In this document: positions 1 to 58,025 of the stretch, in pieces
Numbering within the stretch: the stretch's first letter is position 1
Layout of the letters: every line of letters begins with the position of its first letter
Origin: an uncultured Clostridia bacterium
GTDB taxonomy: Bacteria; Bacillota; Clostridia; Christensenellales; CAG-917
Direction of reading: 5' to 3'
Length of the DNA stretch: 64,000 bases
Assembly: GCA_944332995.1 (NCBI GenBank)
Contig: CALVKR010000001.1
Span: 62,001-126,000 of the forward strand
Notes under the pieces: model-generated
What the model was told of the DNA's origin: nothing
The model's input: the letters and a program-made list of their open reading frames with translations, nothing else
Databases searched by the model: none
Position numbers and translations under genes: made by a program

Positions 1-381
1 GCCGTTTTCCAAAAGGTATTTTCTCAGTTCTACGTTTTTGGTATTGGGCGAAAGTACATAGTTTTTGACTCTCGACGGCGCATTGGTCAATATGTTTATT
101 ATCTCGAGTCCGCCCATACCGGCAATAACGACGTTATCTATACCGTCAAGCTCCACGCCGCTAAGTCCGTCCGTGCAAACGGCCTCAATTTCAACCCCAC
201 AGCTTTTGGCAAGCTCTATCGCCTTATTCAGGCTCGGTTCGCTTATGTCCGTCGCCACCACTCTCTTAAAGCCGTCCAGCTTAGCCTTGACGCATAATTT
301 GCCGTGGTCGCAGCCGACGTCGCAAAGTCCGTCGCCTATAAGGTGAGAATATATTTCGTTTAATCTATATGTCAACAACAT
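1..381 (-). CDS. trmK: TrmK-like tRNA (adenine-N1)-methyltransferase, partial (3' end outside window)
   Basis: This is the first 127 codons of a class I SAM-dependent methyltransferase; the gene runs off base 1. The translation shows a SAM-binding motif I (DVGCDHGKL), an acidic ATDIS segment and a GMGG motif, the pattern of the TrmK family that methylates N1 of A22 in tRNA. The ATG at 379-381 lies inside the end of rpoD (10-base overlap), so the two are probably translationally coupled. TrmK directly after rpoD is the usual Bacillota arrangement. Function is inferred from motif plus context; the C-terminal half is not visible. Confidence 0.85.
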
Positions 382-1424: not shown

Positions 1425-1438
1425 ACAATGGATTCCTC

Positions 1439-37083: not shown

Positions 37084-37140
37084 ATTGCACCTCGGTTTAA
37101 AGCCCGCAAAAGCGGGCTTTAAGGTTTATGTTTGTTTAAT

Positions 37141-38997
37141 TTAGTTTACCGTTCCGTCGGCGGAGTCGTCAACAGTTCCGTCAAAGCCGTCCTGACCGCC
37201 GCTCTGAGCGTTGGGGTCAAATCCTGCCGCTTTCGCAGCGTCGGCTGCCGCCTGAGGATTTTCCTGATAGAATTTCGTGAAAATCGGGTCGCTCGCTTTG
37301 CTGAGCTTTTCGACGGCTTCCTTGACTTTTTCGACGTCTTCCGCTTTTGCGATTTCTTCCGTTGCCGTCTTAGAGGCTTCTTCCAAAGTCTTTTTGTCGT
37401 CTTCGGAAATCTTGTCGCCGTTGTCACGAACGAATTTCTCTATCGTAAAGGTAAGCTGTTCCGCACCGTTTTTGGCGTCCACCAATTCCTTACGCTTTTT
37501 ATCTTCCTCGGCGTATTTTTCCGCATCTTTGATAGCGGCGTCGATATCGTCTTTAGTGAGGTTGCTTGAAGCGGTTAAAGTGATTGATTGCTCTTTATTC
37601 GTGCCCTTGTCTACCGCCTTGACGGAAACGATTCCGTTTGCGTCGATATCAAAGGTAACTTCGATCTGAGGAACTCCTCTGGGTGCCGGAGCGATACCGA
37701 CAAGCTGGAAGTTGCCGAGCGTCTTATTGTCTTTAGCCATAGGTCTTTCACCCTGCAAGACGTGAATGTCAACCGCCGTCTGATGGTCTGCCGCTGTCGA
37801 GAAGATTTGCGACTTGCTCGTAGGAATGGTTGTGTTACGTTCGATAAGTTTTGTAAACACACCGCCCAAGGTTTCGATACCGAGCGAAAGAGGAGTTACG
37901 TCCAAAAGGAGCATATCCTTTACTTCGCCTGCCAAAACGCCTGCCTGAATTGCGGCACCGATTGCGACGCATTCGTCGGGGTTGATGCCCTTATAAGGCT
38001 CTTTGCCGGTGATTTTTTTGACTGCGTCGTAGACAGCCGGAATTCTCGTCGAACCGCCTACCATAATGACTTTGGCGATGTCGCTATATTTTAATCCTGC
38101 GTCCTTCATAGCCTGTTCCATAGGACCGATGGTCTTTTGGACAAGGTCTTCGGTGAGGCTGTCGAATTTAGCTCTTGTGAGCTCCATGTCGAGGTGTTTG
38201 GGTGCACCGTTCGCCATAGCGATAAACGGCAAGTTGATTTTGGTCTTTGTCACGCCGCTGAGGTCGATTTTGGCTTTCTCTGCCGCCTCTTTGATACGTT
38301 GCATTGCCATTTTGTCGCCGGAAAGGTCGATGCCCTCCGCCTTTTTGAATTCGTCGACAATGTAGTCCATGATTTTTTTGTCGAAGTCGTCGCCGCCGAG
38401 TCTGTTGTTTCCGCTTGTAGCCAAAACTTCGAATACGCCGTCGCCGAGTTCGAGAATGGATACGTCGAACGTGCCGCCACCGAGGTCGTAAATCAAAACC
38501 TTTTGCTGCTTGTTTTCGTCTTTGTCTATGCCGTAAGCAAGCGCAGCGGCGGTAGGCTCGTTGATGATACGCAATACTTCAAGTCCCGCTATCTTGCCCG
38601 CGTCTTTGGTCGCCTGTCTTTGAGCGTCGCTGAAGTATGCGGGAACGGTGATAACCGCCTGTGTGACTTTGCCGTTGAGATATTTCTCCGCATCGTTTTT
38701 AAGTTTTGTCAAAATCATTGCACTTATCTCTTGCGGAGTATATTCCTTTCCTTCGATTTTGATTTTTCTATCCGAGCCCATGTCCCTCTTTATCGAGATA
38801 ACGGTGTGGTCGGGGTTTGCGACGGCCTGACGCTTTGCAACGTCGCCGACGAGTCTTTCGCCGTCTTTAGAAAAAGCTACGACGGAAGGGGTCGTTCTCA
38901 TACCTTCGGCGTTGACGATAACGGTAGGCTCGCCGCCTTCCATAACCGCCACGCATGAGTTTGTTGTTCCAAGGTCAATACCGATAATTTTTCCCAT
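37141..38997 (-). CDS. dnaK: Chaperone DnaK (Hsp70)
   Basis: A 618-residue Hsp70. The ATPase domain starts [13 protein letters not shown] and carries [23 protein letters not shown] and [10 protein letters not shown]; the linker reads [13 protein letters not shown], followed by the substrate-binding and lid regions. It lacks the eukaryote/proteobacterial 24-residue insert, as is usual in Gram-positives. It works with GrpE and DnaJ encoded on either side. Compare the distant Hsp70-like protein at 51443. Confidence 0.98.
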
Positions 38998-39028
38998 AGT
39001 TCTATTCTCCTTAAAAATTATATTTTTT

Positions 39029-39619
39029 TTAACCGGCGACTTTTACCATTGCGTATCTCAATACGCTGTCGCCCTTTATATAGCCCTTTAACAGGACCTG
39101 CAAGACTTTGCCTTTCATTTCCTCGTTTTCCTCTCTCATGACAGCCGTCATTTTGTTCGGATCGAAATCGTCGCCTTCTTTGACTTCAATTTCCTTTACG
39201 TCGTATTTTGAAAGTATCGCCTTTAGCTGCTGTTCGATAAGGTCAAAACCTTTAATCGAATCGTCGCCGTTTATCATTTCTTTTGCTCTGTCAAGATTGT
39301 CGATAACTTCAAGTATCTTTTCGAGCACCGAGCACTCGCCCAAAATTCTCATTTCCGTCGATATACTCTCGTTTCTCTTTTTATAGTTATCGAAATCCGC
39401 TCTCAGTCTCAGCGCCGTGTTTTTGTTTTCTTCGGCAAGCGCTATGTTTTTACCAAGCTCCGTTTCCAAAAACTCAACGTATTCTTCAGGCGTCATATCC
39501 TCTTTTGAAACGCCCTCTTTTTTCTCGTCGTCCGCCGAGGCTGTTTCCTCTATCTTTTCTTCTGTCGATTGAGGTTCGTCTAAGGTTTGCTCTTTTTCTT
39601 TTTTATTCTTTTCGCTCAT
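39029..39619 (-). CDS. grpE: Nucleotide exchange factor GrpE
   Basis: A 196-residue DnaK nucleotide exchange factor. An acidic, disordered N-terminus of about 45 residues is followed by the long helix ([12 protein letters not shown]) and the C-terminal beta-domain. It overlaps the end of hrcA by 17 bases and is 31 bases ahead of dnaK. Confidence 0.95.
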
Positions 39620-40643
39620 CTATATCCTCCGTCTGTGTGTCGTCGAAAACGCTTTCAAGCGATTTCTTAATTCCGTCCAATACGGAAGCGACTTTTTTAT
39701 AATCCATTCTTTCAGGTCCTATGACTCCTGCCTGACCTATCACCTGCCCGTTTATCTTGTACTCTGCGGTGACTATAGCGCATTTGTCAATCCCCTCGCC
39801 CCCGATTTTCATTGAAAATTCGATGTTGTCGTCGGGAGTTACCAGTCTTTCAAGCGAATCGCTGTCCGACATAATCTCGAGGAAATTTTTCACGTCGCTA
39901 GGATTTTCGTTATAATCCAAAACCTTTAAAGCTCCCTCAACGTGAACGGATTTCCGTTTTTCAAGGCAATAGCTTTCAAGTATGGATATGATTTCATCGA
40001 AAACCGTTTTATATCCCTCAATACTCTTGCCTATCTTTTTAAGCTCACTGTCAAGATTTATCGACGAAACCTTTTTGCCCTGAAACACTTTGTCGAGCAA
40101 ATCGCTTGCCGCCTCTATGCCCGCCTGCTTGACGTCGTCGGGAATTTCTATCGCCTTGTCGGTGATGATACCGCAATTTGTGACGATGAGCACAAGCGCA
40201 AGTCCGTTTTGAAGTCCTACGAGTTTGATTTCCTCAATCACCACGTCCTCGTTGTTGTTGGCAACAAATACCGTCGTGTAGTTTGTCTGGTCGCTTATTA
40301 TCTTTGCCGCCTCAACCGAAAGACTCTCTATGCTCGTTACCTGCTTTGAAAACCTTTCCGTCATAGACGTAAGGTCTTGCTCGGTAAACTCGTGATTTTC
40401 AAACGCCCTTTGACAATACAGCTTGTATGCCTCGGGTTTCGGAACTCTGCCTGCCGACGTGTGCGGCTTGTCGATATATCCGAGCGCCTCTAAGGCGTTG
40501 AGCTCCGACCTGATTGTTGCGGAACTGACTTCGGGCATATACTTCGATTGAATATCTCCGCTCGAAACCGGCTCCGCCGATTTGATATAATCGTCGACGA
40601 GAGCGTTTAGTATTTTTTCCTTTCTGTCTGAAAGTTTTGTCAT
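39603..40643 (-). CDS. hrcA: Heat-inducible transcription repressor HrcA
   Basis: A 346-residue repressor that binds CIRCE operators and is kept active by GroEL. The start was set at MTKLSDRKEK (40641-40643), preceded by GGAGGAGA; the frame extends 17 codons further without family similarity. An N-terminal winged helix (VSSGDIQ ... SSATIRSELNALEALGYIDK) and the GAF-like C-terminal part are present. First gene of the hrcA-grpE-dnaK-dnaJ-prmA operon, with a CIRCE just upstream. Confidence 0.95.
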   Translation of the reverse strand: MTKLSDRKEKILNALVDDYIKSAEPVSSGDIQSKYMPEVSSATIRSELNALEALGYIDKPHTSAGRVPKPEAYKLYCQRAFENHEFTEQDLTSMTERFSKQVTSIESLSVEAAKIISDQTNYTTVFVANNNEDVVIEEIKLVGLQNGLALVLIVTNCGIITDKAIEIPDDVKQAGIEAASDLLDKVFQGKKVSSINLDSELKKIGKSIEGYKTVFDEIISILESYCLEKRKSVHVEGALKVLDYNENPSDVKNFLEIMSDSDSLERLVTPDDNIEFSMKIGGEGIDKCAIVTAEYKINGQVIGQAGVIGPERMDYKKVASVLDGIKKSLESVFDDTQTEDIDERKE

Positions 40644-40710
40644 ACTCTTACTCTCCTCCGGGCAAACACCTCGGCATTTGTCCGTTTTTGGCACTCTTGA
40701 GGCTCGTTTG

Positions 40711-40737
40711 TTAGCAATCTACTGCCTTGACTGCTAA
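40711..40737 (-). promoter_or_regulatory. CIRCE operator
   Basis: TTAGCAATC-N9-GACTGCTAA, a 9-9-9 inverted repeat matching the CIRCE consensus (TTAGCACTC-N9-GAGTGCTAA) at all but one position per arm. It directly follows the hrcA -10 box, so bound HrcA would block transcription initiation. Confidence 0.9.
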
Positions 40738-40738
40738 T

Positions 40739-40767
40739 AATATATTACCGATTTTACCGTTTGTCAA
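40739..40767 (-). promoter_or_regulatory. Promoter of the hrcA-dnaK operon
   Basis: On the minus strand TTGACA (complement at 40762-40767) and TATATT (complement at 40739-40744) are separated by 17 bases; the CIRCE begins 2 bases downstream. Confidence 0.85.
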
Positions 40768-40789
40768 CTGTTTTTAGCAATTTTTTTTA

Positions 40790-41790
40790 AAATTTTTATA
40801 TAAATTTTTCTACAAATTTTCGACAAAATGCTTTATATTCGAAAAATAGCATTAAACGCCACCTTAAAGCCACTCTTAGCAGAACAGAAATGCTTTAAAT
40901 TTATACCGTTGTCGGCTATGACAAGGTAGAATGTTTCAGGCAAATGCACAGCATAAGACAAAACCGCAATTTGTATGCAATTCGGCCTGTATGTGCAACC
41001 GCAGACTATAGCCAACTCGGTCTATAATTCAGCCTATTGTTCAACCGCAACGTATAACCGCTTCGCTCTTTAATTCAGCTTAATGTGCAACTGCAACGTA
41101 TAACCGCCCCGCTCTTTAATTCAGCCTGTATGTGTAACTGCAAAGTATAACCGCCCCGCTCTTTAATTCAGCCTGTATGAGCAACCGCAACGTATAGCCA
41201 CTCGGTCTATAATTCGGCCTGCATGTGCTACCGCAACGTATAACCGCCCCGGTATAATTCTTCGGAATGCGCTGTGTTTCGTCAATGAAGTTGCAATAGA
41301 CTACCGTGGGCATATAATGCAGTCTATCCTTATACCGCAGGCTAATATCACCACTATGTCGGCATGGGGTAAATTTATCTTTGCGTTTTAGGATAAAATA
41401 AAAAACTTAGCATTATATGCTAAGCCTGAAACTTTAAAAATCATTGCTTGAAAATCAATGCAAAACTATAAATTTTAAAAAACTGAAACGAGATTTTACA
41501 AACCTGAGGTTTTAACCATACCTGCAAAATTTAATATAAAATCCGATATTATTTATATACCTTACGCTTATGTTAAACTTTACCGTTCCTATAATGGGTT
41601 CCGTTCTTATAAGTCTTCCGTTCCTATAAAGTCTTCAGTTCTTATAATGCTTCCGTCCTTATAAGAGTTGAGTTATTATCTATAATTGCGTTATTATCAA
41701 ACGATGCGCCGTTATTTAACCTCTCGCAGTTATATAATCTTCCGTTTTGATATAACAACTTTTATAAAAAATTCCGATTTGAGAAATTTT
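40790..41790. repeat. 1-kb gene-free spacer with two tandem-repeat arrays
   Basis: Six units of 46-47 bp (start CAACCGCAACGTATAACCGC) begin at 40996, 41042, 41088, 41135, 41182 and 41228; the last is truncated. A second array has the word CCGTTCYTATAA at 41583, 41601, 41618, 41636 and 41653, a period of 17-18 bp, with diverged copies to about 41755. Short open frames in the arrays are by-products of the repeats. No gene or terminator is evident. Confidence 0.85.
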
Positions 41791-42885
41791 TCAGATTTTA
41801 TTCATTATATTTGCTAAAGCCTCATCTGCCGAACGGGTATTTTGAGCTATGATATCGTCGTCTGTAAACACGAAGTCACAGCCGTTACTGCGGCATTTGA
41901 CGTAAAAAGTTCCCAAAAACTTTTGTAGCGTATCGCTTGCTCTGCCATCGGATATCCTTAAATACTCGAAAAAGTCTTTCTTTAAATGCGAAGTCATTTT
42001 GTTCTTGCCTGCCCTGTTTACGAAAAACAGAAACAGAGTGCCTTTAGAGCCCTTTGCGTCTTTATCCTCTTCCCAGCGTTTGAAATATTCTTCAATATTT
42101 TTTATGTCCGACAAAGGTTTTGTGGTAATGCGAGCATTCCACTCGTCGTCAAAATATATCATGACCGAGGATATCTTTTTATCGCTCGCCAAAAGCGGAC
42201 AAATTTCCGAGTAGCTTTCGCAAAATTCAGCCTTTGTCATTTTAATCATACCGAATCTTGGCGGTCTGAAGTCGCTTGAACACTCCTTTAAGATGTCGTA
42301 CGGTTTACCGCTCGTCTTATCCTCAATGACGTCAAACGACGAAGTCAATCCGTAAACGCTTTTGATATAATCCCTTTCAAAACGCATCGTTTCGGCGTTG
42401 CCGGCCTTGAGTTTACCTATTATATTGAGAAAATCGGAAGCCGCTCTCGTTTTAAGTTTTAGATAAAAATCGTTTTGGTATCCGTCTATCCCCTTTTCAA
42501 CAGAAACGCTCTCGAGCTTTGATTTATACAGCAATTTAAAATAAAATCCTGCATATCTGAGCCTCTCCGATTCGCTCCTGTTACGTTCCATATAGTCTTT
42601 TTGATAATAAAATCCTATCCTCCAAACGGCGGACGGATGCCCGAGGTTGGCGGCATAAATGCAAAGAGAGGTCGCCTGTTCGATATACTTTTTATAATCC
42701 TTTCTCGATTCCGCCTTAAGGGCGTTGAGGTAAAAAAGTTCGGAGAGCTTGAAAATCTCGTCGTTTTCCCTCGTTATCTTAAAATCCGCATCGAAAATCG
42801 GACTCTTACATTTAGGGCAGACCAAAGAGCCGTCAAACAGAGTCAACACTTCGTCAAATTCTTTTTTGCATTTTTGACATTTCAT
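41791..42885 (-). CDS. Zinc-ribbon protein, last gene of the Hsp70/SNF2 operon
   Basis: A 364-residue soluble protein. An N-terminal zinc ribbon is clear (C3, C6, C23, C26). A helical middle part (about 45-150, with YIEQATSLCIYAANLGHPSA) resembles a Sel1/TPR-like repeat. The C-terminal half is mixed alpha/beta without a recognised family. It starts 12 bases after the MBG-repeat gene and is probably the last gene of the five-gene unit. No catalytic motif is seen; role unknown. Confidence 0.65.
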   Translation of the reverse strand: MKCQKCKKEFDEVLTLFDGSLVCPKCKSPIFDADFKITRENDEIFKLSELFYLNALKAESRKDYKKYIEQATSLCIYAANLGHPSAVWRIGFYYQKDYMERNRSESERLRYAGFYFKLLYKSKLESVSVEKGIDGYQNDFYLKLKTRAASDFLNIIGKLKAGNAETMRFERDYIKSVYGLTSSFDVIEDKTSGKPYDILKECSSDFRPPRFGMIKMTKAEFCESYSEICPLLASDKKISSVMIYFDDEWNARITTKPLSDIKNIEEYFKRWEEDKDAKGSKGTLFLFFVNRAGKNKMTSHLKKDFFEYLRISDGRASDTLQKFLGTFYVKCRSNGCDFVFTDDDIIAQNTRSADEALANIMNKI

Positions 42886-42897
42886 ATCTCGCCCTCC

Positions 42898-45800
42898 TTA
42901 AGCCTCGTATACGCTGAACGATTTTTCCGTTTCGCAGGACGCTGCAATTTTGAAATTCGCCCCTGCCGATACGCTCACTTTATATTCGCCTGCCTCGGTA
43001 ATTTCCTCTACCGTATATCCTTCGGCGTCTGTAATTTTATAGACAAGCGTGCCTTGCGCCGAACCGTCGTCGGCGGTTGCCAAAGGATAAAGTATCTCGT
43101 CGCCCAGCGTAAAGGAGGATTTATCTTCCCATACGATGACGATTTCTTTTTGCATTATCTCAAACATGACGGAGGAATCGGCAAGAGCATAATTTCCCCC
43201 CTGTCCCGAAGCTGTTGCGGAATAATTTCCGGCATCAGTCTTTCCACCGCTGACGCTGAGGACGATTTTTCCGTCATTGCCAACGCCGTTAATATACGCC
43301 GTCGGAGTGTGAGGCTGACCGTCATATACAAAACTGAGATTTTCCCACACCACATTTACGGTTAGCGGCGAAATATCGTAGCTTTGCGACAGAGAACAGG
43401 TTATCAGATAATTTGCGTTGGGATTTTGCGCCGTTGCGACATGATTGCCTGCATCTTTTGCCGCTCCCGTCACAGGCATTGTTATTTTACCGTCGCTGCC
43501 CACGCCGATATACGAAGCGGACGGAAGTTGCGACAAGCCGTTATACGTCATGGTGAGATTTTGCCAATCGAGCGAATTTATCTGATATTGGGCTATAACA
43601 AACTCGGACAATTTGGTCGATTCGCTTATGACATAGTTTTGATTGTCTATCTGCGCGGTTGCGGTATAACTGCCTGCATTTATCTTTTCACCGCTGACGG
43701 CGACGTTTACCGTATCGCCCGATACGACTCCCTCTCCTGCCTCGGCAGACGGCTTTTGAGCCAAACCGTTATAGGTGAGCGAAAGGTCCGACCATACGAG
43801 CTCGACGGTTTTGGCATTTATCGAATATGCCGCCGTGGGATTTGAAAGCGTATAGTTGGCATTTGAACAGCCTGCCGTAGCGGTATAATTTCCGACGTTG
43901 ATTTCTCCTGCCGAAACGGTAAGGGATATCACACCGTCCGCACCTACGCCGTTTATCGATGCCGAAGGAGTCTTTGCCGTCTTATCGTAGACAAAGGAAG
44001 TTTCTGCCCACTGAACGGTAACGGATAAAGGCAGAATGTTGAATGTCATAGTTTTGTTTTGGTCTATCGTATAATTGCCGTCGGATATCGAAGCGGTTGC
44101 GCTATAGCCGTTTCCGACAAAAGTTTGCTCGCCCGATACCGTAACCTCGACGATGTCGCCATCACATACGTTTTTGAGCGTTGCGACGGGTTTTTGCGGA
44201 TATCCCGAATAGACGAGCGAGGTTTTAGACCACTCTACCAAAACGGGTTTGGGCAAAATTTCAAACGATTTTTGAGTGCCGGTGAGCGTATAATTGTTGT
44301 TTGAAACGGAAGCGGTTGCGGTGTGCGAGCCTGAGTCCGTCGCTCCGCCCGTGACGGTCAACACGATAACGCCGTCCAAGCCCACTCCGTTGATAGTTGC
44401 CGAAGGCTGTTGTTTTGTCTTGTTGTAAACGAAACTGTCGCCCGACCAAACGACCGCTATCTCATATTTAGTTATCTCAAACTCGGTGGTTTTTGACGAC
44501 TGCGAAAGCGTGTAGTTGGCGTCGGTTATGTTTGCGGCAGCCTGCCACGTTCCGACGTTTTTTTGTCCGCCGCTTACGCTCACGTTTACCGTATCGCCTT
44601 CGACTGTTCCGCTAAGCGTAGCCTTGGGCGACTGAGCGTATCCGTTGTAGACCATAGACAGACCGCTCCACACGACGGTCAATTCTTTAGGCAGAACGGT
44701 AAACTGCGTCTGAATGCCTGTCAACGAATAGTTTAAATTGTCGCTGACCGCCGTTGCAATATACTCCCCGGCATCTGACTGTCCGCCGTCGACTCTGACC
44801 GACACCGTGCCGTCCGTTCCAACGCCGTTAAAAGAAGCCGTGGGAGTCTTTATCGCTCCGTCGTATACGAACGAGAGATTTTGCCAATTTACCTCAGCCG
44901 TAGCGGGTAAAATTTCAAACGACCTCGATGACGTAGATGAAGTTATCCGATAATAATCTGCGCACTCGCCCGTAAGCGTAGCCTTTGAAACGTATTCGCC
45001 TGCATTGACAACGGAATTTAAGCTGAGAGAAACGGTTACCGTATCGCCGTTTATAATGTCCTTTGCGTCGCCCGATGCGCTGACCGACTTTTCCGTGCTG
45101 TCGTATATCTCGGCATCAGGAATATCCCATATAAGGTCAAGCGTCTTTTTGTTTACCGTGATATTTACCGTTCTCGTCGCATAAGACGTTAGCGACGAAA
45201 GCGACGACGAAGACGTGACGGTGAGAGTGTAAACGCCGGAATCGCTGACAGGCGAAATGTTGTTTTTGGTGTATTCTCCGCCCGACCAGACTTCCGAGCC
45301 GTTAAACGACCAATTAAATGTCAGGTCCATATTGTCGGAAGCGGCAACAGCGCTTCCCGTCAATATCAAGTCGTCGCCGTATACGTATGCCTGGCTGTTA
45401 GACGATATGGCGTTGACGGTGGGTTTTTCCATTTCCCATTCGGGATACAATATAATTTTCGAGTCCTTGCCCGAAGAATTCAGCACCGCTTTAAAGTCTA
45501 TCAAATCTGTCTTTTCCGAGCTGTCCACCGTATATAGGAAGGAATATGTAAAGCCGTCTCTCGATGGTAAAGAATTTATTAAATCAAGACAGTTGTAAAC
45601 GGTAACGAAACGGTATTGATATTTTTTGGCGTTATATACCGTGGTTTTATAACTTTCGTCCGTTTCGTATAAGTCGTCGTTATCTTCCGCTATCGAAACG
45701 GCGTATACGCTGTCAAAAACGATACTCACCGAAACGTCGTTTTTGGGCGTTGCCGATTGTATTGCGTCAAGCGAGCTTTTGGACAATATCTTTGCGTCGG

Positions 45801-46845
45801 CGTTTTCGTAGCACCATACGAGGTCGTCCGTGTCGGCGGCATCCGAGTGCGACATATAACTTGTCGAATAGAGTTTTGTCAAGTCAAACCCTTCGTCCGT
45901 TTTAGCCGTAAGCGTGGGAAGATATTCTCCCCTTGCCTCGGCGGCAGATTCGAGAGTATATTCAAACGACAGATAGTTTTCGTTTTCCGCAACAAAAGGA
46001 ATAATACCGTTTGCAAAATTTAAATAGCCTTCTTGATTAAAGAAAACGGCAAGGTCGTAAAACTCGTCCTTTAAACCGTCGACACTGTCTCGAAGCGTAA
46101 CGAGAGTAAATCCGTCTTTAATTTCGGTGAGAACGCTGTAATTGACGTACTCGGCATCCGACGTGTTGACTGTCGCAGAATTGACTTTCGTGAATATCTC
46201 GCAGTTTATTTTAGAAACAGTCTTTCCGTTGAACGTTTCCTCAATAACGACGCTGTCGCCCCTGCCGTCCATAACGGAATCGGCGATATAGCTGTCCGTT
46301 TCGGCGTCGTATACGTAGGATACGGGTCTTATTCCGATGAAGCCCTGCCCTAAAAATCCTTTTGAGAATACAAATACCGAATATAATACGCTGACTAATG
46401 CAAATACGATTAAAACGATAAGCGCAAATATGCTAAGGGACTTGCCGAATTTTGCGCCTGCCAAAGACCCGAATAAAACCGTTACGCTTGAAAAGGCGTG
46501 GCATATTCCCCAAAGCACGACGGCGGTTATCGTGATAATAGTTCCCTCCGCAATTAAAAACAGTATCAAAACTGTGCCTGCCATAAGGATAAGATTGACT
46601 ATCGAATAGAATAATCCGTAAGAGAATCCGTATTTAAGCCTGAAATTTGTAAAAAACGCCACGACGAAAAAGGAAATGTCTAAAGCCGCCATAAGTGAAG
46701 GCAATATGAAATATATACCGTCGATGCCTGCAACGATGAGGGATACGATAACGAAAAAATTAGTCACGAAAGATATAGCCGCCGCTATATACAATTTGAC
46801 CTTTGAGCTTGTAAGCTGTTTTTCGGTAAACGATTTAGTTTCCAT
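42898..46845 (-). CDS. Giant membrane protein with about ten MBG/Ig-like repeats
   Basis: A 1315-residue protein. The N-terminus (about 15-165) has four or five membrane helices. A region with a LIDFKAVLN and ILYPEWE repeat-like segment and an Ig-like domain follows (about 430-560). The rest is about ten tandem repeats of roughly 72 residues with the pattern VxWxxLSFVYDGxxxxPxA, then NYTATA and a closing strand, the MBG-type bacterial surface fold. No sortase motif is seen; anchoring is by the N-terminal helices. It lies 3 bases after the zinc-finger gene and 12 before the last gene, so it belongs to the operon although its repeats should face outside. Confidence 0.75.
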   Translation of the reverse strand: METKSFTEKQLTSSKVKLYIAAAISFVTNFFVIVSLIVAGIDGIYFILPSLMAALDISFFVVAFFTNFRLKYGFSYGLFYSIVNLILMAGTVLILFLIAEGTIITITAVVLWGICHAFSSVTVLFGSLAGAKFGKSLSIFALIVLIVFALVSVLYSVFVFSKGFLGQGFIGIRPVSYVYDAETDSYIADSVMDGRGDSVVIEETFNGKTVSKINCEIFTKVNSATVNTSDAEYVNYSVLTEIKDGFTLVTLRDSVDGLKDEFYDLAVFFNQEGYLNFANGIIPFVAENENYLSFEYTLESAAEARGEYLPTLTAKTDEGFDLTKLYSTSYMSHSDAADTDDLVWCYENADAKILSKSSLDAIQSATPKNDVSVSIVFDSVYAVSIAEDNDDLYETDESYKTTVYNAKKYQYRFVTVYNCLDLINSLPSRDGFTYSFLYTVDSSEKTDLIDFKAVLNSSGKDSKIILYPEWEMEKPTVNAISSNSQAYVYGDDLILTGSAVAASDNMDLTFNWSFNGSEVWSGGEYTKNNISPVSDSGVYTLTVTSSSSLSSLTSYATRTVNITVNKKTLDLIWDIPDAEIYDSTEKSVSASGDAKDIINGDTVTVSLSLNSVVNAGEYVSKATLTGECADYYRITSSTSSRSFEILPATAEVNWQNLSFVYDGAIKTPTASFNGVGTDGTVSVRVDGGQSDAGEYIATAVSDNLNYSLTGIQTQFTVLPKELTVVWSGLSMVYNGYAQSPKATLSGTVEGDTVNVSVSGGQKNVGTWQAAANITDANYTLSQSSKTTEFEITKYEIAVVWSGDSFVYNKTKQQPSATINGVGLDGVIVLTVTGGATDSGSHTATASVSNNNYTLTGTQKSFEILPKPVLVEWSKTSLVYSGYPQKPVATLKNVCDGDIVEVTVSGEQTFVGNGYSATASISDGNYTIDQNKTMTFNILPLSVTVQWAETSFVYDKTAKTPSASINGVGADGVISLTVSAGEINVGNYTATAGCSNANYTLSNPTAAYSINAKTVELVWSDLSLTYNGLAQKPSAEAGEGVVSGDTVNVAVSGEKINAGSYTATAQIDNQNYVISESTKLSEFVIAQYQINSLDWQNLTMTYNGLSQLPSASYIGVGSDGKITMPVTGAAKDAGNHVATAQNPNANYLITCSLSQSYDISPLTVNVVWENLSFVYDGQPHTPTAYINGVGNDGKIVLSVSGGKTDAGNYSATASGQGGNYALADSSVMFEIMQKEIVIVWEDKSSFTLGDEILYPLATADDGSAQGTLVYKITDAEGYTVEEITEAGEYKVSVSAGANFKIAASCETEKSFSVYEA

Positions 46846-46848
46846 AGG

Positions 46849-48468
46849 CTATGACCTCACTTTTTTGGGCGGTCTTACAAATCCTTTTTTCATTGCGTCG
46901 AGTTTGTTGAAAATCCATTTATCACTGCCTATAACAAATACGATGATTTCCTCGTCGGAAAAACAGTATTTCCGTTTCGTCGCACTCCAAACTCTGACGT
47001 TCAAAGGCAAAAGCTGCGAATATTTGCGGTATTCACGCTGTGCGTCTGCGAGCGTATCGGCAGAAAGTTTGACGGATTTAAGACAGGTAGGACACAAATT
47101 GTCGTCAGGTTCCGACGACGTGAACCGCCTTCCGCAAACGGAGCAAACCTTGGTGTTTTCCTTTTTGTCTAAAACTATATCGCAGTTTCTCTTGGATATG
47201 ACTAAATCTTTAGTCCATACCCTTTCGCCGTTGTCTAACGTGAATATCACTTCGGGATAGGGGCAATCTTTGCACTTGTAGGCGTTAATATTGTCCACTC
47301 TCACGGCTGACGACATACATTTAGTCTTTATACAACCTGCCATGCCTGCCCTGACGTTTTGCGGACAGACTATCTGCATATGGTGCGACGAGAACACTCC
47401 GCCGTTTAATATGGCGGCTATAGTTTCGTCGTCAAGACCGAGATTTCCGTCTTTTAAATCTATGTAGGCAACTTTTTGCTCGTCGCCGACAAAATATGAA
47501 ATTTTGTTGTTTTCGATAATATTTTCTCCGCAGGAAAGGCACTGCAAAGTGAGATTGTCGTTCAATCCCACGCTTATCCTGTATCTCGGCGAATTGCCCT
47601 CGTATACGTCAAAAGCAAAAGTCTTTAAATAGACGTGCGAGATTGCCTTTACCTGAACGTCGGTAACGAACAGCACGACGTCCTCGTGTTTAGAATTGAA
47701 CAACAGATTTTTTATTGTCGTTTCCGACGGCGAATAATACAGATAATCGGCAAAATTGAAATTTTGCTCGCCGTCACCGACGCATGCCTGCAATGCGTTT
47801 AATGCGGAATCGATTATTTCTTCCGCTCCCTGCACACCCTTTACGGTGGGAGCGGATACGTCGACTTCCTTTAAAAATCTCTCTATATCGCCCGCCACGT
47901 TCTTTTTGACGGCTGTAAGTCTGTTTTTGACAGATTTAAAATAGACCTTACCGAGACACGGCACGGGAGCGCCTGTTCCGCCGTGCATCTTAAGACAGAG
48001 CGACACCCCGAAATATTCCTCGAGTTTTCTTTCGGGAAGCGGTTTGATATCGAATTTGTCTGCGCTAAGTTGCGGCAGGAAGTTTGATACAATCTTCTCT
48101 AAAACCGTTTTCGGCTGAAATCCGTAATCTTTGTCAATGGGCGCATATTCGATAACGGGATATTTTTTGTGGAAAAGTTTTGCCACTTCCGAAACGAGCT
48201 CTATCCATTTAGAGCCGGTATCCGCAACCTGCTTGCCCCCTTTGATTCCCTCAAACCAGCTTGCACCCGATTCGGTCATACGGGCAAAAGAGGATATCTC
48301 CTTTTCGCCGCCGTCCATAATAAACTCGGTATCGCCGTATACGATTTTATCGCCGTCGGGATATACGGAGAGTTTTTCTTTTAACACCGTGCCGAAAGAC
48401 GACTTCAATAAAGTCGTTACGTTATCGAATGAGCGTTTATAACCTTTTTCGACGTAAACGGTTGTCAT
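46849..48468 (-). CDS. Multi-zinc-finger protein of unknown function, operon partner of the SNF2 helicase
   Basis: A 539-residue soluble protein. The first 300 residues show no recognised domain. The C-terminal half holds zinc-ribbon knuckles: C310/C313, C368/C379/C384, C399/C402 and C442/C445/C459/C462. The last ribbon (VCSVCGRRF ... CPTC) is a classic treble-clef pair. It overlaps the SNF2 gene by 4 bases (ATGA junction), so the two products are likely made together. The cysteine style resembles the tail of the SNF2 protein, which suggests a physical partner. Confidence 0.65.
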   Translation of the reverse strand: MTTVYVEKGYKRSFDNVTTLLKSSFGTVLKEKLSVYPDGDKIVYGDTEFIMDGGEKEISSFARMTESGASWFEGIKGGKQVADTGSKWIELVSEVAKLFHKKYPVIEYAPIDKDYGFQPKTVLEKIVSNFLPQLSADKFDIKPLPERKLEEYFGVSLCLKMHGGTGAPVPCLGKVYFKSVKNRLTAVKKNVAGDIERFLKEVDVSAPTVKGVQGAEEIIDSALNALQACVGDGEQNFNFADYLYYSPSETTIKNLLFNSKHEDVVLFVTDVQVKAISHVYLKTFAFDVYEGNSPRYRISVGLNDNLTLQCLSCGENIIENNKISYFVGDEQKVAYIDLKDGNLGLDDETIAAILNGGVFSSHHMQIVCPQNVRAGMAGCIKTKCMSSAVRVDNINAYKCKDCPYPEVIFTLDNGERVWTKDLVISKRNCDIVLDKKENTKVCSVCGRRFTSSEPDDNLCPTCLKSVKLSADTLADAQREYRKYSQLLPLNVRVWSATKRKYCFSDEEIIVFVIGSDKWIFNKLDAMKKGFVRPPKKVRS

Positions 48469-51308
48469 CTTACCTCCGTATCGTTTTCAAGTATTTTCTG
48501 AATGGCGGCGACGTTTTTGGCTTCCTTTCTAAGGCTCTCGCAAAAAGCCTTTTCGTCGTGGCGGAATTCCCAAAGCTCGCTGATGTAGGTAGCAAACGTC
48601 TTTGAATGTATCTCTTTTATCTTATCTCCGCACACAGGACATACCGCCTCCCAATTGTCGTCGAAAGACAAAACGTGGGGCTTTGGCGTGCACATTGCAT
48701 ACGGACAGGTCGAACATCCCTCAATAGCCTTGGCAGGCTCGTCGTAAGGGATATAACGGCACTTGTCCATACAGTCGAGATTGCAATTTGAACATATATC
48801 GATAAGGTCGATATCGTGAATTTGCGGCTCGTCTTTAAGCGCTCTTACGAGCGGACAGCCGATATCTTCAAGCCGCTGACAGTGCATGACGGCGCATCTT
48901 TTCGTGCAGAAAAGATTTCTGTCGTGGGCATTGTTGCCCATAACTCCTTTACCGTTTTTGCTGTTGGATATGCACTCGTATCCCCTCGCGGTTCTTATAA
49001 AAGCGGATTCGCAAGTGGGACATTTGAAGTCTTTGACGGATATCTGCTCCATTTTAGTGCCACGAGTCTTTTTGAGGTAATAATCCTGAGTGCAGGCTCC
49101 CGTTGCCGTGCAGTAAAGCTCGTCGCTGTCTTTGCGCTTGTATATTTCATATTCGTCCTCGCTGAACAGTTTGACGTTTCCGCAACCGGGGACGGGACAC
49201 CTTACAGCCACCATTTTTTCGCTGTTGCTTCCTGCGATAATGGTAGCGTCGCCGCTGTCCGTCGTCATAAGACCGATTCTTGTAAAATACGCAGTGACGT
49301 ATCCCTCGAGCGCTTTCATATCGGCAAAGGAATATACCGTTACGTCGTTTGATTGTCCTATACGGTAAACCCTGCCTATCCTCTGGCTCATCTCGACGGG
49401 GTCGTGCGTAACCTCGAAGTTGATAATTATATTTCCGCTTTGCAGGTTGGCGCCCTCGGTATAACATTCGTCGTGCACCAATAAGATAGCGTCGCTTTTT
49501 TTGTCGAACTCTTTAATGACTTCGTCCTTATTCAAATGCGTTCCGACTAAAATTCTGTCTTTGAATTTGTCCTTTATAGAATTATATACCCTCTCTTTAA
49601 GAGTGGATTTTCCGTCGTAATCGTAAAATACGATAACTCTTTCGTTTGCGTGCCTGTTTAAAAGACGGACGAGCAGATACAGTTTATATTCGTTTACGTT
49701 TCTGTTTTTGTCGTAAAATACGAACTTATCGTCCGCTTCTTCGGGCGAGGCGGCAAACTGTTCCCAATAATAGGACGTTGCGCCTATTCTTTTTACGCCG
49801 TTAAAGGTAAAATTATCCTCACTGACGCCCATAGCTTTAAATATCCTGTTATCGAAAAGCATCTGCGCATAAGCGTAGGCGTTTTTCTTGTTGGTTTGCT
49901 TGTATTTTGCCGCATATTCTCTGAGCGACATGGTTTTGCCGTCAAATTCAAGCAAGATATCTCCGCCTTTCAAAGAGGCGTTTATCGTTTCGTCGTTTAA
50001 ACCTTTGACGCTAATTGCCGAAAGCGGATTATCCGACGGCGCAAGATAATAATTTACAATCTTTTTGTTTATCCTGCGGCTGTTTGACTGTCTTATCATT
50101 ATCGAACGCAAAACACCGTTGTGGTAGGCGTTTGCCACGATTTTGGATATCTCGTTTCGGCGCAAAAAGTCCGCCTCGACGAACTCGTCAACGGCAGGCC
50201 ACTTTTCTGCGTCCGAAAGAGCCTCAAACTGTTCGGGTCTGCCCTGACAGATATTTTTATCTTTTAAAAAACGGTAAAAATCGTTTTTGTATTTTTCAAA
50301 TTTGGTCACGGTGTCTATCTTAACCTTCTTGATAAACTCCATAACCGTCGTTGCCCTGTGGCAGATAAAGTTTTTATAATAGTTTTGTTCTTTGAGATAC
50401 TCCTCGGACCTGTTGTCGTCGCCCTCTTTTAAGAAGTCGTCGGGATTGCCGCCCTTGCAACGGATAAAATACCAAAGCCTGAACATGTTTGCGAGGTTGC
50501 CTGAATGAGGCGTGGCGCTGAGGAGCAGACAGTAAGTCGTACCGAAACTCTTTTTTAAAGCCATCATTGACGAGAGCAGATAGAGAGCGTTTGCTCCCAA
50601 TCCCTGTTCCTCGCAAAGATGGTGAGCCTCGTCCACCACTATGACGTCGAAAAGCACGTCGTTTGAATATTTTCCTGCGCCCTTCCATTTGACGAAGTTT
50701 TCGTAAGTTACGATTATCGCTTTTTTCGGACGGAATATTCGCTTGCCGTTAAGATTCAAAATTTCAAATTCTTCCTCTTGGGTGAATATCGAATTGAGGT
50801 CGTCGTTTGCGACAAAAAGTTTTCCTTTGCCGAAGCCGAATTTCATTTCAATAACGTCTATCCAGCTTGAAAGCACCTGCTCGGGAACGACGATAAGCAT
50901 ATTTTTGATAACGCCTCTGAGAGCAAGCTCGCTTAGCACCACTCCGGCTTCAAAAGTTTTGCCGCTTCCCACAACGTCAGCTAAAAGTCCGAAGCCTCTT
51001 AACACCTTCAAAAAGTCCTCTGCCGCCCTCTTTTGATGTTCGTTGATGACGTCCACCCTCTCATGAACGGTTTTGTCGTATTTAATTCCGTATTCGCCTG
51101 TTGAGGAAGTCATTTTATAATTTGACAGGTCGTTTTTCAGCATGCCGAAATCGTCATAGCGGTCAAGCTCGTCTATGAGTGGGGAAAGGCGTTGAATTTC
51201 CGTGCTGAAAGGCACCACGTCATTCCCGAAGTTTGACCTTTGGGTATGCTTGGCGTCCTCGCTGAAAGCGCCGCTTTCAAATTTAATTTTAAATTTTTCC
51301 TCTTCCAT
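48465..51308 (-). CDS. SNF2-family helicase with cysteine-rich zinc-finger tail
   Basis: A 947-residue superfamily 2 ATPase. Walker A is DVVGSGKT (111-118), the Walker B box DEAH (226-229), motif III LLSATPHSG (262-270) and motif VI QRIGRVYRIGQ (642-652), giving a complete SNF2/RapA-like motor for moving along or remodelling DNA. Residues about 704-893 contain about 20 cysteines in CxxC-like pairs, suggesting four or more zinc sites. No nuclease motif is seen. Second gene of the operon, after the Hsp70-like ATPase. RapA-like and DISARM DrmD helicases are relatives, but the tail is distinct. Confidence 0.85.
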   Translation of the reverse strand: MEEEKFKIKFESGAFSEDAKHTQRSNFGNDVVPFSTEIQRLSPLIDELDRYDDFGMLKNDLSNYKMTSSTGEYGIKYDKTVHERVDVINEHQKRAAEDFLKVLRGFGLLADVVGSGKTFEAGVVLSELALRGVIKNMLIVVPEQVLSSWIDVIEMKFGFGKGKLFVANDDLNSIFTQEEEFEILNLNGKRIFRPKKAIIVTYENFVKWKGAGKYSNDVLFDVIVVDEAHHLCEEQGLGANALYLLSSMMALKKSFGTTYCLLLSATPHSGNLANMFRLWYFIRCKGGNPDDFLKEGDDNRSEEYLKEQNYYKNFICHRATTVMEFIKKVKIDTVTKFEKYKNDFYRFLKDKNICQGRPEQFEALSDAEKWPAVDEFVEADFLRRNEISKIVANAYHNGVLRSIMIRQSNSRRINKKIVNYYLAPSDNPLSAISVKGLNDETINASLKGGDILLEFDGKTMSLREYAAKYKQTNKKNAYAYAQMLFDNRIFKAMGVSEDNFTFNGVKRIGATSYYWEQFAASPEEADDKFVFYDKNRNVNEYKLYLLVRLLNRHANERVIVFYDYDGKSTLKERVYNSIKDKFKDRILVGTHLNKDEVIKEFDKKSDAILLVHDECYTEGANLQSGNIIINFEVTHDPVEMSQRIGRVYRIGQSNDVTVYSFADMKALEGYVTAYFTRIGLMTTDSGDATIIAGSNSEKMVAVRCPVPGCGNVKLFSEDEYEIYKRKDSDELYCTATGACTQDYYLKKTRGTKMEQISVKDFKCPTCESAFIRTARGYECISNSKNGKGVMGNNAHDRNLFCTKRCAVMHCQRLEDIGCPLVRALKDEPQIHDIDLIDICSNCNLDCMDKCRYIPYDEPAKAIEGCSTCPYAMCTPKPHVLSFDDNWEAVCPVCGDKIKEIHSKTFATYISELWEFRHDEKAFCESLRKEAKNVAAIQKILENDTEVR

Positions 51309-51442
51309 TTTCCCTCTTAGGCGTGTAGTTTCCGTGCAGTGCCCGTCCCTGTTTTAAAATCAATCTAAACAAAGGGATACTTTTGGTATTTTGTTTCTTC
51401 AAATTCGATTCCCTTTTCTTTTTACAGTAGTTTAACAAGGCG

Positions 51443-53407
51443 TCAGCCCATTCTCGTGTTAAACGACTTGACACTGAGAAAATATATGCTCAGTTCCTTT
51501 CCCAAAACTCTGCCTTCATATCCGTTTACGCAGGATATATCAAAAAGATAACGGTGGCAACTTTCGCATATTTCAATAGTCGGCGTCGCCCTGCCGTTTT
51601 TATCGACTTTGATACCCTCTTTAAACATAACGTTTTTCTGGAAAGTAACGGGCGTTATTTTCAAAACTCTAGTGCCTTTATACCATAATCCTATCTGAGA
51701 GTTTGCCTCTCCTCCGCTTACCGTTTCAAGCCCGAGGTCGTGAGCGCAGTTTCTTCTCTTTATCGAGCCTTTATCTCCGAGCACCACCGCTTTTTTGCCG
51801 TCGTAATCTATATTCTTAAACTTCCTTTGCGACGGTGGTAAATCGGCGTCGGCGGCAATTTCGTCAGAATTGACCACAAGCGAATATATTTCCTCGTCGT
51901 CGACGGTTGCGGAAAGCAAGGATATTTCCGTCGTATAAAAATCGCTTCCGTCGGGCGGTAAAATCGAGCCTCTTTCCGCAAAAATTTTGAGCGACTTGTT
52001 TGCGGTATTGCCCGTCCATGTTCCGTATGAAAGGCTGAGCATCGTTTTGATTTCGATATCTTTAAGCGCAACGATTGCTCCGCCTATTGCCGCCGAATAA
52101 CTTGCGTCCTCGTTATCTTTCAAATCGAATTCGTCTTTGGGCGCATTGGTAGCGACGGTAAGAATTTTTTTTGTCGGGCAAAATTTTGCGGCTTCGCTTT
52201 CGATATAACCAAAGAGCGAATAGGTTTCGACGAGTCCGCCGGACAATACCACCTTTTTGACCTTATCGTTGATAGGCCGTTTTAGCTCGTCTATCACATA
52301 TCTTGATATCTTCTTTACTACGTCGAGCGTTGCCGATTGAAATTCCGACAAAGTAAGGTTTTTCTGCAAAACAACTTCCCTGTATATCGAAAGCGGAACG
52401 CCCTTAGGGAAATAATTTCCGCCCTTGTAGCTGAGCGCCACCTTTGACTTTTTTATCTCTTTCATCAAAAGATACTGTTTTGCAAAAACGCTGTTTTCGT
52501 ATATATGTCCGTCTTTTCCGGCACTCGGGGTGCCGACGGTTTCCCTCTCTTTAATTGAGTCTTCGATATAATCGTAAATTGCCTCGTCGACGTTAAGACC
52601 GCCAAGCTCTATCGGTTCGCTGTGTCCGTCTACGCCGTCGATAAGCACTCCGTATCTTGAACTGAACGTAGCCTGGGCAACGGATATGTCTTCCTCGCCC
52701 ATATCGAAAACCAAAAAACTTTCGTCGGGTTTTATCATTTTAAGCTCGGCGGCAAAGAGGCTTATAGCCTTTGTCGAGTTTAATACTTTCACGACCGAGC
52801 CTTCGCCGAAAGCGTTTTCAACAAGCCTTTTTAGCTCGTCGACGTATTCTCCGCCCACCTTGGGAGGGTGAACGACCGCTATATCCAAACCGTAAAACTT
52901 TAGTCCTCTTTTTTGCTCGAGTGCCTTGACTCTGCTGTCGACGACGCCCTCGACGTATTTAAAAAACTCCTCGCATACCTTGGACGGCGTATAGTCTAAA
53001 ACGGTAAAAGTGCGGTTTTTATCCACCATTTCACCGCCGAAATCTTCTATAAGAGAACGTCTTATGGGAAAGAAAAATTTTGGAAAATGATTTTTTTTCC
53101 AATAATAATTTTTGTTTGAAACGGTAACTTGCTCGTTCTCCTTTTCGGATAGCAAGGAAAGCAAAGTTTTTATTTTGACGACGGTAACGTACGATTCGTT
53201 AGAACTTTTGTTGACTGCCGAACCGTATATCCAACTGCCTTTTTTTTTGTCGAAAAAAGCAACGGCTGGAATGGCAACGCTTGTCAGATAATTGCTGTCG
53301 CTGAGTTTACCGAAGCAAAAATCGGAGTCCGACGCTCCCGTCCGATACGCAAAAGAAATTTTGAGCATATCGCTCCCTAAATCCAATCCGATAAACAATT
53401 TCGACAC
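51443..53407 (-). CDS. Hsp70/actin-like ATPase, divergent
   Basis: A 654-residue Hsp70-superfamily protein. The actin-like core shows phosphate-1 GLDLGSDML (7-15), phosphate-2 FDMGEEDISV (234-243) and adenosine motif VVLSGGLVE (386-394), with NSTKAISLF in place of NEPTAAAL. A beta-rich C-terminal part (about 455-654) resembles a substrate-binding domain but lacks the DnaK lid. GTG start at 53405-53407, preceded by AAGGAG. It is the first gene of the operon, 134 bases before the SNF2 gene. It is distinct from the housekeeping DnaK at 37141. Probably a dedicated chaperone or switch of this system; inference only. Confidence 0.8.
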   Translation of the reverse strand: MSKLFIGLDLGSDMLKISFAYRTGASDSDFCFGKLSDSNYLTSVAIPAVAFFDKKKGSWIYGSAVNKSSNESYVTVVKIKTLLSLLSEKENEQVTVSNKNYYWKKNHFPKFFFPIRRSLIEDFGGEMVDKNRTFTVLDYTPSKVCEEFFKYVEGVVDSRVKALEQKRGLKFYGLDIAVVHPPKVGGEYVDELKRLVENAFGEGSVVKVLNSTKAISLFAAELKMIKPDESFLVFDMGEEDISVAQATFSSRYGVLIDGVDGHSEPIELGGLNVDEAIYDYIEDSIKERETVGTPSAGKDGHIYENSVFAKQYLLMKEIKKSKVALSYKGGNYFPKGVPLSIYREVVLQKNLTLSEFQSATLDVVKKISRYVIDELKRPINDKVKKVVLSGGLVETYSLFGYIESEAAKFCPTKKILTVATNAPKDEFDLKDNEDASYSAAIGGAIVALKDIEIKTMLSLSYGTWTGNTANKSLKIFAERGSILPPDGSDFYTTEISLLSATVDDEEIYSLVVNSDEIAADADLPPSQRKFKNIDYDGKKAVVLGDKGSIKRRNCAHDLGLETVSGGEANSQIGLWYKGTRVLKITPVTFQKNVMFKEGIKVDKNGRATPTIEICESCHRYLFDISCVNGYEGRVLGKELSIYFLSVKSFNTRMG

Positions 53408-54120
53408 GTTTTACTCTCCTTATTCAAATACTAACATTTTTATTTATAAATTTCAATAGGTTTTCAAAAAATTTTTACAAATTATCATATTATTTTTTAC
53501 AGTTATTGTAAATGAAAAGTATCGACGCTATCTGCCTTAAAACGAAATAAAATACTTGAAATATTATAAACATTACTTTAGCTTATATGCGCTTTTCCCA
53601 AGTCGCCACGCTTTTTACTAAGCATACCCTCCACTCTTTGCATAAGCCGTGCCCGTCGCAGACGGTTCCTCAACGCTCCGAATGCGGTTTTTTTCACTTA
53701 GGAATATGACCGGCTATTTGCCTGTTGTGCTACCCTCGCTTTTTTACAAATTATATGCTCCGTCCCTTTTCTTAAGCCGTGCCCGTCGCAGACGGCTCCT
53801 CAACGCTTCGAATATGGTTTCTTTTTTTCACTTAGGAATATGACCGGCTATTTGCCTGTTGTGCTACCCTCGCTTTTTTACAAGTTATACGCTCCGTTCT
53901 TGGCATAAGCCGTGCCCGTCGCAGACGGTCCTCGTTTTTGCCTCAATAACTTTTGTATATAAATTATACTCTGCCTTTTATAAAACGCCTTAGTGCCAAA
54001 AGGATTGCTTTTATGAAAGTGCCGTCATAATACAGACAGTGCCATAAAAATTAAAAAATAAAGTTAAATTTTGTTGTCAAACAGATTTTAATTTGATATA
54101 ATGACAAAGCTTTAAAAAAT
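53408..54120. repeat. Promoter region of the Hsp70/SNF2 operon and a 130-bp tandem repeat
   Basis: On the minus strand TTGAAA (complement at 53451-53456) and TAGTAT (53428-53433) are 17 bases apart just before the GTG. Between 53643 and 53937 two and a quarter copies of a unit of about 130 bp occur (starts 53643, 53773, 53906), beginning AAGCCGTGCCCGTCGCAGAC and containing ATATGACCGGCTATTTGCC. Within it CCGTC-GCA-GACGG forms a small hairpin. The copies are over 90 percent alike by eye. Possible non-coding RNA or repeat family; no gene seen. Confidence 0.7.
54074..54102 (+). promoter_or_regulatory. Promoter of tRNA-Thr
   Basis: TTGTCA (54074-54079) and TATAAT (54097-54102) with a 17-base spacer, 18 bases before the tRNA. 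Confidence 0.75.
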
Positions 54121-56522: not shown

Positions 56523-56782
56523 GCGTTTATTCCTTGTAATGGTTGTCTTAAAATATTTTCGTTTTTTAAATAGTGCAATTGACAGTGAAGCTGTCTGCCC
56601 TTTTTCGGTTAAACGCCATTGATTCGCATATTGTAGCGGTTTGGATTTTAACTTATATATTTTTAATAATACCTATGTAGCGTTCTTCTCTTTTTTTTGC
56701 GGAGCATCTTATAATAATTACTATAAATTCCCTGCGCACTTATTTTAGTTTTTAAAACGCAAAAAAAATGTATTAAATTCAC

Positions 56783-56811
56783 TTGCCGAAAAATAAAAGA
56801 TATGGTATATT
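56783..56811 (+). promoter_or_regulatory. Promoter of tRNA-Glu
   Basis: TTGCCG (56783-56788) and TATATT (56806-56811) with a 17-base spacer, 17 bases upstream of the tRNA. Confidence 0.65.
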
Positions 56812-56828
56812 TTTTCTTGCCTTGATAT

Positions 56829-56903
56829 GCCCTCGTGGTCAAGAGGTTAAGACGTAGCCCTCTCACGGCTGAGTCTGGGGTTCGATTCCCCACGGGGGTA
56901 CCA
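56829..56903 (+). tRNA. tRNA-Glu (anticodon CTC)
   Basis: A 75-base cloverleaf: acceptor GCCCTCG, anticodon stem TAGCC/GGCTG with loop CTCTCAC (anticodon CTC, codon GAG), T-arm TGGGG-TTCGATT-CCCCA, encoded CCA. The recombinase reading frame on the opposite strand runs straight through it, so this tRNA is the likely integration point of the mobile element. Confidence 0.93.
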
Positions 56904-56907
56904 ACGC

Positions 56908-56950
56908 AAATATCACTCGGAACATTGCATTCCTGAGTGATATTTTTGTT
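56908..56950 (+). terminator. tRNA-Glu terminator or attachment-site palindrome
   Basis: AAATATCACTCGGAA pairs with TTCCTGAGTGATATTT around a 7-base loop, followed by TTGTTTT. It ends tRNA transcription but also lies inside the recombinase reading frame, so it may be part of the attachment site. Confidence 0.65.
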
Positions 56951-58025
56951 TTCTGATGTTTCCATTAACCCGTATTTTTCCAAATCAGCATTTGTGATTG
57001 ACATTTCAGCAATAGAACCCTCATAAGGTAAAATGTTAATAAAGGTTTCAACTCGGTCACTATAAACAACCACACGATTAAGTAAAGTGGTTATAATTGT
57101 TCTTCGGTCTTCAATTTTTCCGCTTTGCAATAATTTCAAAACCTTGCAGTAAGAACGGCGAATTTGGTCTTTCGTTACAAATTCAGTCAGTCCCATACTT
57201 GTTTCGTTTTTAAGATTTGCAAGTATTTTTATCTTTTCATTAGTGAGTGAATCCAACTCTGCCTCAAACATTTCAGTATATTTTCCTGTTTCAGCAACAA
57301 CTTTTGTCAAATTAGAAATTTTACGCTCAACATCTTTCAAATTATTTTGAAGCGTTTTAATAATTTGGCTGTTGTCATTCCTTTCTTTATAAAATTCTAC
57401 AAAGCGGTCAAGTATACTTGCGACAAACTCTCCACTTTTTACAACTTTTTCAATTTCTTTTATTACAAAATCTTCAATGGCTTCTTTACGAATAGAAATC
57501 ATTTTACAATTATCATTATCACGCCCGCAACGATAATAGTGATAAGGTTGTCCATTCTTGTAGTGAGTAGAACCCGTAAATTGTGCTCCACAATTTCCAC
57601 AAACAATTTTACCAGTCAAAAGATAATCAACCAGCGAACGAACATTTGGCTTATGTTTGCGAGCGTTTAACATTTGTTGCACCTTGTCAAAGTCTTCTTT
57701 TTCAATTATTTTTGGCAGTCCACCCTCGTTTCGTATTACTTCCAAGTCCATATAATTAACTTGTTTACCTTTATTATACTCTAAAATATAAACACCAGTA
57801 TAACGCTCATTTCTTAATATTTTATCAATATGAGTTGCGTTAAAATCTCCGCCCCTTGCATTCTTATAGCCGAGTTCTTTTAATCGTGCCAAAATATCAT
57901 TTCTGCTTGCCCCAGCCAAGAACATATCAAAAATTAGTTTTACAGCAATTGAGCGTTGTGGGTGGAGCGTGTAAGTGTTTACCACTTTTGAAGATTTTCC
58001 GTCCTTGCTATGCTTTTTAATAGGA

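Follow-up and report, generated by a model that had tools for sequence, protein, structure and literature searches.

A mobile Hsp70–SNF2–surface protein operon of gut Clostridia as the core of a predicted anti-invader system

Five adjoining genes of an uncultured gut Clostridia bacterium, here named A to E, probably constitute the core of a horizontally mobile, order-restricted system against invaders, most likely phages; the full form of the operon comprises ten genes. The operon lies on the minus strand at 41791–53407 of the window, that is, the whole 64,000-nucleotide stretch presented; this copy is a shortened form of an operon with the order A-B-C-D-E-F-G1-I-G2-H. In the papers we found, this predicted system is previously undescribed, and the operon lacks the features by which DISARM, BREX, Zorya and CoCoNuT were tested.

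An earlier note, made from the letters of the DNA, had described five packed genes, and all five open reading frames were re-found intact at their coordinates on the minus strand, with intergenic spacings of 134 (A/B), −4 (B/C), 3 (C/D) and 12 (D/E) bases. Gene A starts with GTG, preceded by an AAGGAG-type ribosome site, and a purine-rich Shine–Dalgarno-like stretch is found at four of the five starts, that of D being weak. Upstream of A, at 53428..53512 on the minus strand, are two promoter-like sites (TTTACA-17-TATGAT, and TTGAAA-17-TAGTAT with an extended TG), which are matches to the consensus only.

The order A-B-C-D is kept in 33 genomes from several families, the window included, the exceptions being contig ends; this set combines loci obtained by scanning the genomes of 84,980 species with the gene B alignment and those from whole-genome searches. 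The scan yielded 26 B-family loci, which stand apart from every other SNF2 protein: the E values jump from 4e-138 to 3e-18. When 151 genomes of the order were surveyed, A, B and the N-terminus of D were each present in the identical eight; were the three independent, such a set would arise with a chance of about 2e-13, a figure that is no formal test because A, B and D are physically linked, and in view of relatedness and sequence weights. The transmembrane (TM) and ectodomain part of D never occurred without A and B in this survey and, within the family, matches to C were confined to operon-carrying genomes. Together with the conserved neighbourhood in the 33 genomes, this lends weight to the joint function proposed in the earlier note, as do the helicase-nuclease and AAA+ ATPase genes, related to PADLOC defence models, that relatives add to the operon. 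Neither the singly occurring homologues nor the named system that would speak against that proposal emerged from the neighbourhood and profile results.

The distribution is patchy, at about 5% of the order's genomes surveyed (8/151), and the operon seems confined to a single order of gut Clostridia. Gene B in a class sample of 391 genomes and gene A in a phylum sample of 398 matched no genome but the window's own; gene A was not found in phages or in viral contigs, nor gene C in plasmids, among which gene B matched only generic SNF2 proteins. Homologues come mainly from metagenome-assembled genomes, in which contig ends hide some neighbours. Transfer between classes, as suggested by the labels 'Bacilli' and 'Acholeplasmatales' on two loci (L059 and L061), was considered and rejected: the DnaK fragment of L061 matches that of the window at 76%, as near as other members of the order, which makes the Acholeplasmatales label doubtful, and the L059 genome gave no DnaK match. 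The Acholeplasmatales-labelled genome carries its operon on two contigs (L061 and L196).

Clustering of the flanks and profile searches identified the downstream genes. F (about 500 AA, coiled coil) directly follows E in 21 loci, and is succeeded in the full order by G1 (about 640 AA, with an invariant HExxH), I (about 1500 AA), G2 (about 250 AA) and H (about 384 AA, an AAA+ ATPase by profile; PADLOC IetA 1.7e-29). Gene I of relatives has the domain content of the PDC-S37/Hhe helicase-nucleases, with DUF4011, AAA_11, AAA_12 and a restriction-endonuclease domain (REase_MTES_1575), and matches the corresponding PADLOC models at 1e-120 (PDC-S37) and 1e-49 (Hhe). The complete ten genes were seen in seven loci (L188–L194), and F-G2-H without the intervening G1-I in seven loci. 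One of the latter, L059, has an AAA_11/AAA_12/REase helicase gene (2–3013, plus strand) upstream of A and not downstream of G1, and the I gene can thus change place. An initial impression that F was missing from the window's family proved to be an artefact of single-sequence BLAST, as profiles found F, G1 and I in relatives.

The five-gene system of the earlier note is upheld in that the five genes are intact and have conserved neighbours; it does not hold as a complete unit, being the five-gene form of a ten-gene one. Where relatives have F-G1-I-G2-H, the window has a non-coding stretch of about 1.1 kb that bears repeats and lies between E and hrcA (40695..41790, minus strand), and no remnants of F to H were found in this DNA. 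The window genome gave no DUF4011 helicase gene and, in a search run without a positive control, no F. No locus other than the window copy was found to have E but lack F, and one relative (G035) has an A–D copy without E and F, all of which could be read as signs that the window operon has been cut down from the ten-gene system to a remnant that no longer works and persists only briefly. We find this somewhat doubtful, given that all five long reading frames are open (4 kb in D alone), that the SNF2 motifs and zinc ligands are intact and that the GC content of A–D is close to that of the adjoining dnaK operon, features which together show no sign of decay. Nor does the GC content give any sign of a recent foreign origin. 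A second kind of shortened operon was observed in another genome (L057/L022), where a DegV gene follows D and both E and F are missing.

Gene A (51443..53407, minus strand; 654 AA) encodes the divergent Hsp70-like ATPase of the earlier note, with a DnaK-type nucleotide-binding domain and a C-terminal beta domain. Its match to the Pfam HSP70 profile is under the cut-off (E 0.0014), but the AlphaFold2 model (mean pLDDT 84; alignment of 21 homologues) is predicted to share the nucleotide-binding fold of the Hsp70 superfamily, matching DnaK and BiP with Z scores of 27–29.5 and a Foldseek value of 1.9e-21; the beta domain aligned less tightly (469 residues with 7kru). The predicted model finishes in beta strands and is without the helical lid (SBD-alpha). 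Aligned to the window's own DnaK by hhalign, A gives an E value of 3.5e-4 across residues 5–410, and it is no recent-duplication paralogue of the adjoining dnaK. The phosphate-2 loop reads DMGEED in the window protein versus DLGGGT in DnaK, and G-E-E/N is found at this position in 20 of the 21 homologues, such that the canonical loop and catalytic residues of Hsp70 are missing. ATP hydrolysis by A may hence be weak or absent, by the reasoning applied to the Hsp70s of CoCoNuT systems (PMC11090510).

The zinc-tailed SNF2 protein is encoded by gene B (48465..51308, minus strand; 947 AA), in which motifs I, II, III, V and VI of the SNF2 ATPases are all intact, and in which a tail of about 240 AA carries 19 Cys, each kept in at least 10 of 11 homologues. 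The profiles that come nearest to B, those of BrxH, DrmD, DpdE and RapA, all score far under their curated cut-offs (DrmD 111 bits of 610, RapA 101 of 576, DpdE 95 of 500), and the closest relative of the motor in the PDB is RapA (1e-24). RapA, the best-characterized SNF2 relative of B, recycles RNA polymerase and is no defence protein. The two cysteine-rich partners proposed for A and B were borne out by residue conservation. Gene C (46849..48468, minus strand; 539 AA), which encodes a zinc-binding protein and overlaps B by four bases, has an N-terminal alpha/beta part and a Cys-rich C-terminal half, with 12 Cys and 2 His kept in at least 19 of 22 homologues; its structure model (pLDDT 77.5) had no Foldseek match at E ≤ 0.001. 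We considered whether C could be a detached C-terminal domain of RapA, since the top four VIA matches were all RapA, but their Z of 6.0 lies below the best Z of 7–8 typical of chance, and hhalign of C to E. coli RapA gave nothing, leaving the kinship without sequence support. Gene E (41791..42885, minus strand; 364 AA), the final gene of the window copy, has an N-terminal zinc ribbon and a helical middle; C3, C6, C23 and C26 are invariant in five homologues, and the zinc-ribbon profile match is under the cut-off.

Gene D (42898..46845, minus strand; 1315 AA) encodes a membrane protein for which the outward MBG repeats suggested from the sequence were likewise predicted. Five TM helices are predicted at residues 20–160, with positively charged inside loops, and this charge pattern places the C-terminus on the outside. 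Nearly every D homologue with an intact N-terminus is predicted to have five such helices, one pair scoring six. The helices are followed by a conserved ectodomain (about 161–480), an Ig-like region and eight MBG-like repeats of 72–76 AA each at 654–1240 (Pfam MBG_3 4.9e-10); no LPxTG is present. Five comparisons, made within two groups of closely related genomes, show D to be the fastest-evolving part of the operon, at 59–67% identity versus 81–92% for A, B, C and E. Such rapid change is commonplace among surface proteins of any kind.

With respect to known systems, A, C, D, E and F matched no defence model (PADLOC-DB of 2023), and in the open-access literature we found no paper linking Hsp70, SNF2 and an MBG surface protein, absences that are no proof. 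The closest defence-associated SNF2 profiles to B, namely DISARM DrmD, BREX BrxH and DpdE, differ from it in that B scores far below their thresholds, has a different tail with its 19 conserved Cys, and is accompanied by none of their partner genes: the operon holds neither DrmA/DrmB nor a methylase, and its proteins gave no matches to the BREX core (PglZ, BrxA-C, PglX). RapA, for its part, has no zinc tail, stands alone and is without such operon partners. CoCoNuTs (Type III-A and Hsp70-McrB fusions) are multi-gene conflict operons and resemble the present one in that their Hsp70 NBD/SBD domains have degenerate ATP sites, as well as in their coiled-coil proteins and, in some extensions, a SpoVK/CDC48-type AAA+ ATPase (PMC11090510). 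The operon is unlike them in having no McrB GTPase (NxD), McrC homologue, HEPN RNase or TerY-P, and in being built around an SNF2 motor and a surface membrane protein. Zorya resembles the proposed arrangement in that a complex anchored in the membrane, and bearing an outside domain, is coupled to a helicase/nuclease within the cell; protection by Zorya requires binding of ZorB to peptidoglycan (PMC11890865). The MotAB-like pair ZorA/ZorB had no matches among the operon proteins, D being of a 5-TM/MBG type, and Zorya is without Hsp70 and zinc proteins. The claim that the operon fits no known system accordingly holds for its parts, while Zorya sets a precedent, in its logic and not in its components, for linking a complex in the envelope to a helicase. 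The PDC-S37/Hhe helicase-nucleases and IetA, to which I and H of the ten-gene operon show matches, figure in PADLOC as single genes or in other pairs not linked to Hsp70-SNF2-MBG, and are absent from the window copy. That the operon belongs to a named system (CoCoNuT, DISARM, BREX, Zorya or DpdE/dpd) which the models fail to name would accord with the profile scores of B and with the degenerate Hsp70s of CoCoNuTs, but the distance of B from every cut-off and the missing McrB/McrC, DrmA/B, methylase, PglZ and ZorA/B make it highly improbable.

A role in defence is favoured by the kept order of A-B-C-D, the identical pattern of A, B and D across genomes, the patchiness and the relocation described below; by the downstream F-G1-I-G2-H cassette of relatives, whose I and H match PADLOC defence models; and by the profile neighbours of B (BrxH, DrmD, DpdE, RapA), the rapid evolution of D and the change from GGGT to GEE(D/x) in A. 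Sensing at the envelope and action on DNA, as the earlier note proposed, are plausible in light of the predicted topology of D, the SNF2 motor and the additional helicase-nuclease of the full form. From these features we infer a possible division of labour. D would anchor the complex in the membrane, its fast-evolving ectodomain reporting an envelope disturbance or an outside ligand, and A, with its altered and probably weak ATPase site, might act as a conformational gate or adaptor and not as a folding chaperone. C and E could serve as zinc-bearing connectors, and B, a motor with a zinc tail, may load on DNA and translocate along it or strip proteins off. In ten-gene operons, I, which joins an SF1 helicase to a restriction-endonuclease domain, would destroy nucleic acid, with G1, a predicted HExxH metallopeptidase, and the AAA+ ATPase H contributing activating, remodelling or processing steps. 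The five-gene form of the window, being without I, might block invaders by DNA translocation or remodelling alone, or may have lost its effector.

A bolder reading, which we hold less likely than not, is a ten-gene immune system leading from envelope to genome: the 5-TM surface protein would be the sensor, and its signal would pass by way of a gating Hsp70 and zinc adaptors to the SNF2 motor and helicase-nuclease. This system would also exist in a reduced five-gene form, and would be the first in which an outward-facing MBG protein of the surface, together with an Hsp70, is coupled to a DNA motor. If the operon does serve defence, uncultured gut Clostridia harbour an undescribed system in which a route from surface to DNA can be recognized and an Hsp70 has a task other than folding, and its five- and ten-gene forms offer a natural experiment on the sensing and killing parts. 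If not, why a surface protein and an SNF2 motor are strictly conserved together still calls for a biological explanation.

The surroundings of the operon bear on both its mobility and its role. On the 5′ side are a tRNA-Thr and two genes that, by their sequence, we take to be DUF1294-like and PAP2-like; on the 3′ side, beyond the 1.1 kb of repeat-bearing DNA, is a complete heat-shock operon, hrcA-grpE-dnaK-dnaJ (35932–40694). The slot between PAP2 and hrcA is present without the operon in several relatives, including one (G027) in which the PAP2-like gene lies close to hrcA and the operon resides on another contig, and the operon has therefore moved. This relocation against synteny and the presence in 8 of 151 genomes amount to a patchy, mobile distribution, as is expected of a defence system. 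Against defence speak the apparent restriction to one order, as most defence systems cross phyla, the lack of a recognized nuclease in the window copy, and flanks that, where examined, appear to hold mostly housekeeping or carbohydrate genes and no defence island; in a partial survey, ten flanking proteins were mostly housekeeping, and one neighbour was an I-like helicase. The heat-shock neighbourhood invites a different explanation, namely a surface or stress module with D as adhesin or envelope protein, A as a dedicated chaperone, and B and C as a RapA-like transcription-recovery pair regulating or supporting D. The large MBG/Ig architecture of D, the RapA kinship of the B motor (1e-24) and the weak RapA matches of the C model (Z 6) would fit such a module, but relatives do not have the operon next to dnaK, the likeness of C to RapA has no counterpart in sequence, the D N-terminus is never found without A and B in the survey, and ten-gene loci bring in a helicase-nuclease as well as an AAA+ ATPase, both near to defence models; we regard this explanation as unlikely and prefer the anti-invader reading.

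Degenerate direct repeats lie on both sides of the operon, at 53600–53990 and 40900–41320 (for example CCGTCTGCGACGGGCACGGCTTA three times and GCAACGTATAACCG three times). Further along the window, at 56663–58544, serine-recombinase-like reading frames in two frames (517 and 172 AA) overlap at their 3′ end a tRNA-Glu (56829–56903), and the DNA beyond is much lower in GC (0.31), a combination suggestive of one end of an integrated element.
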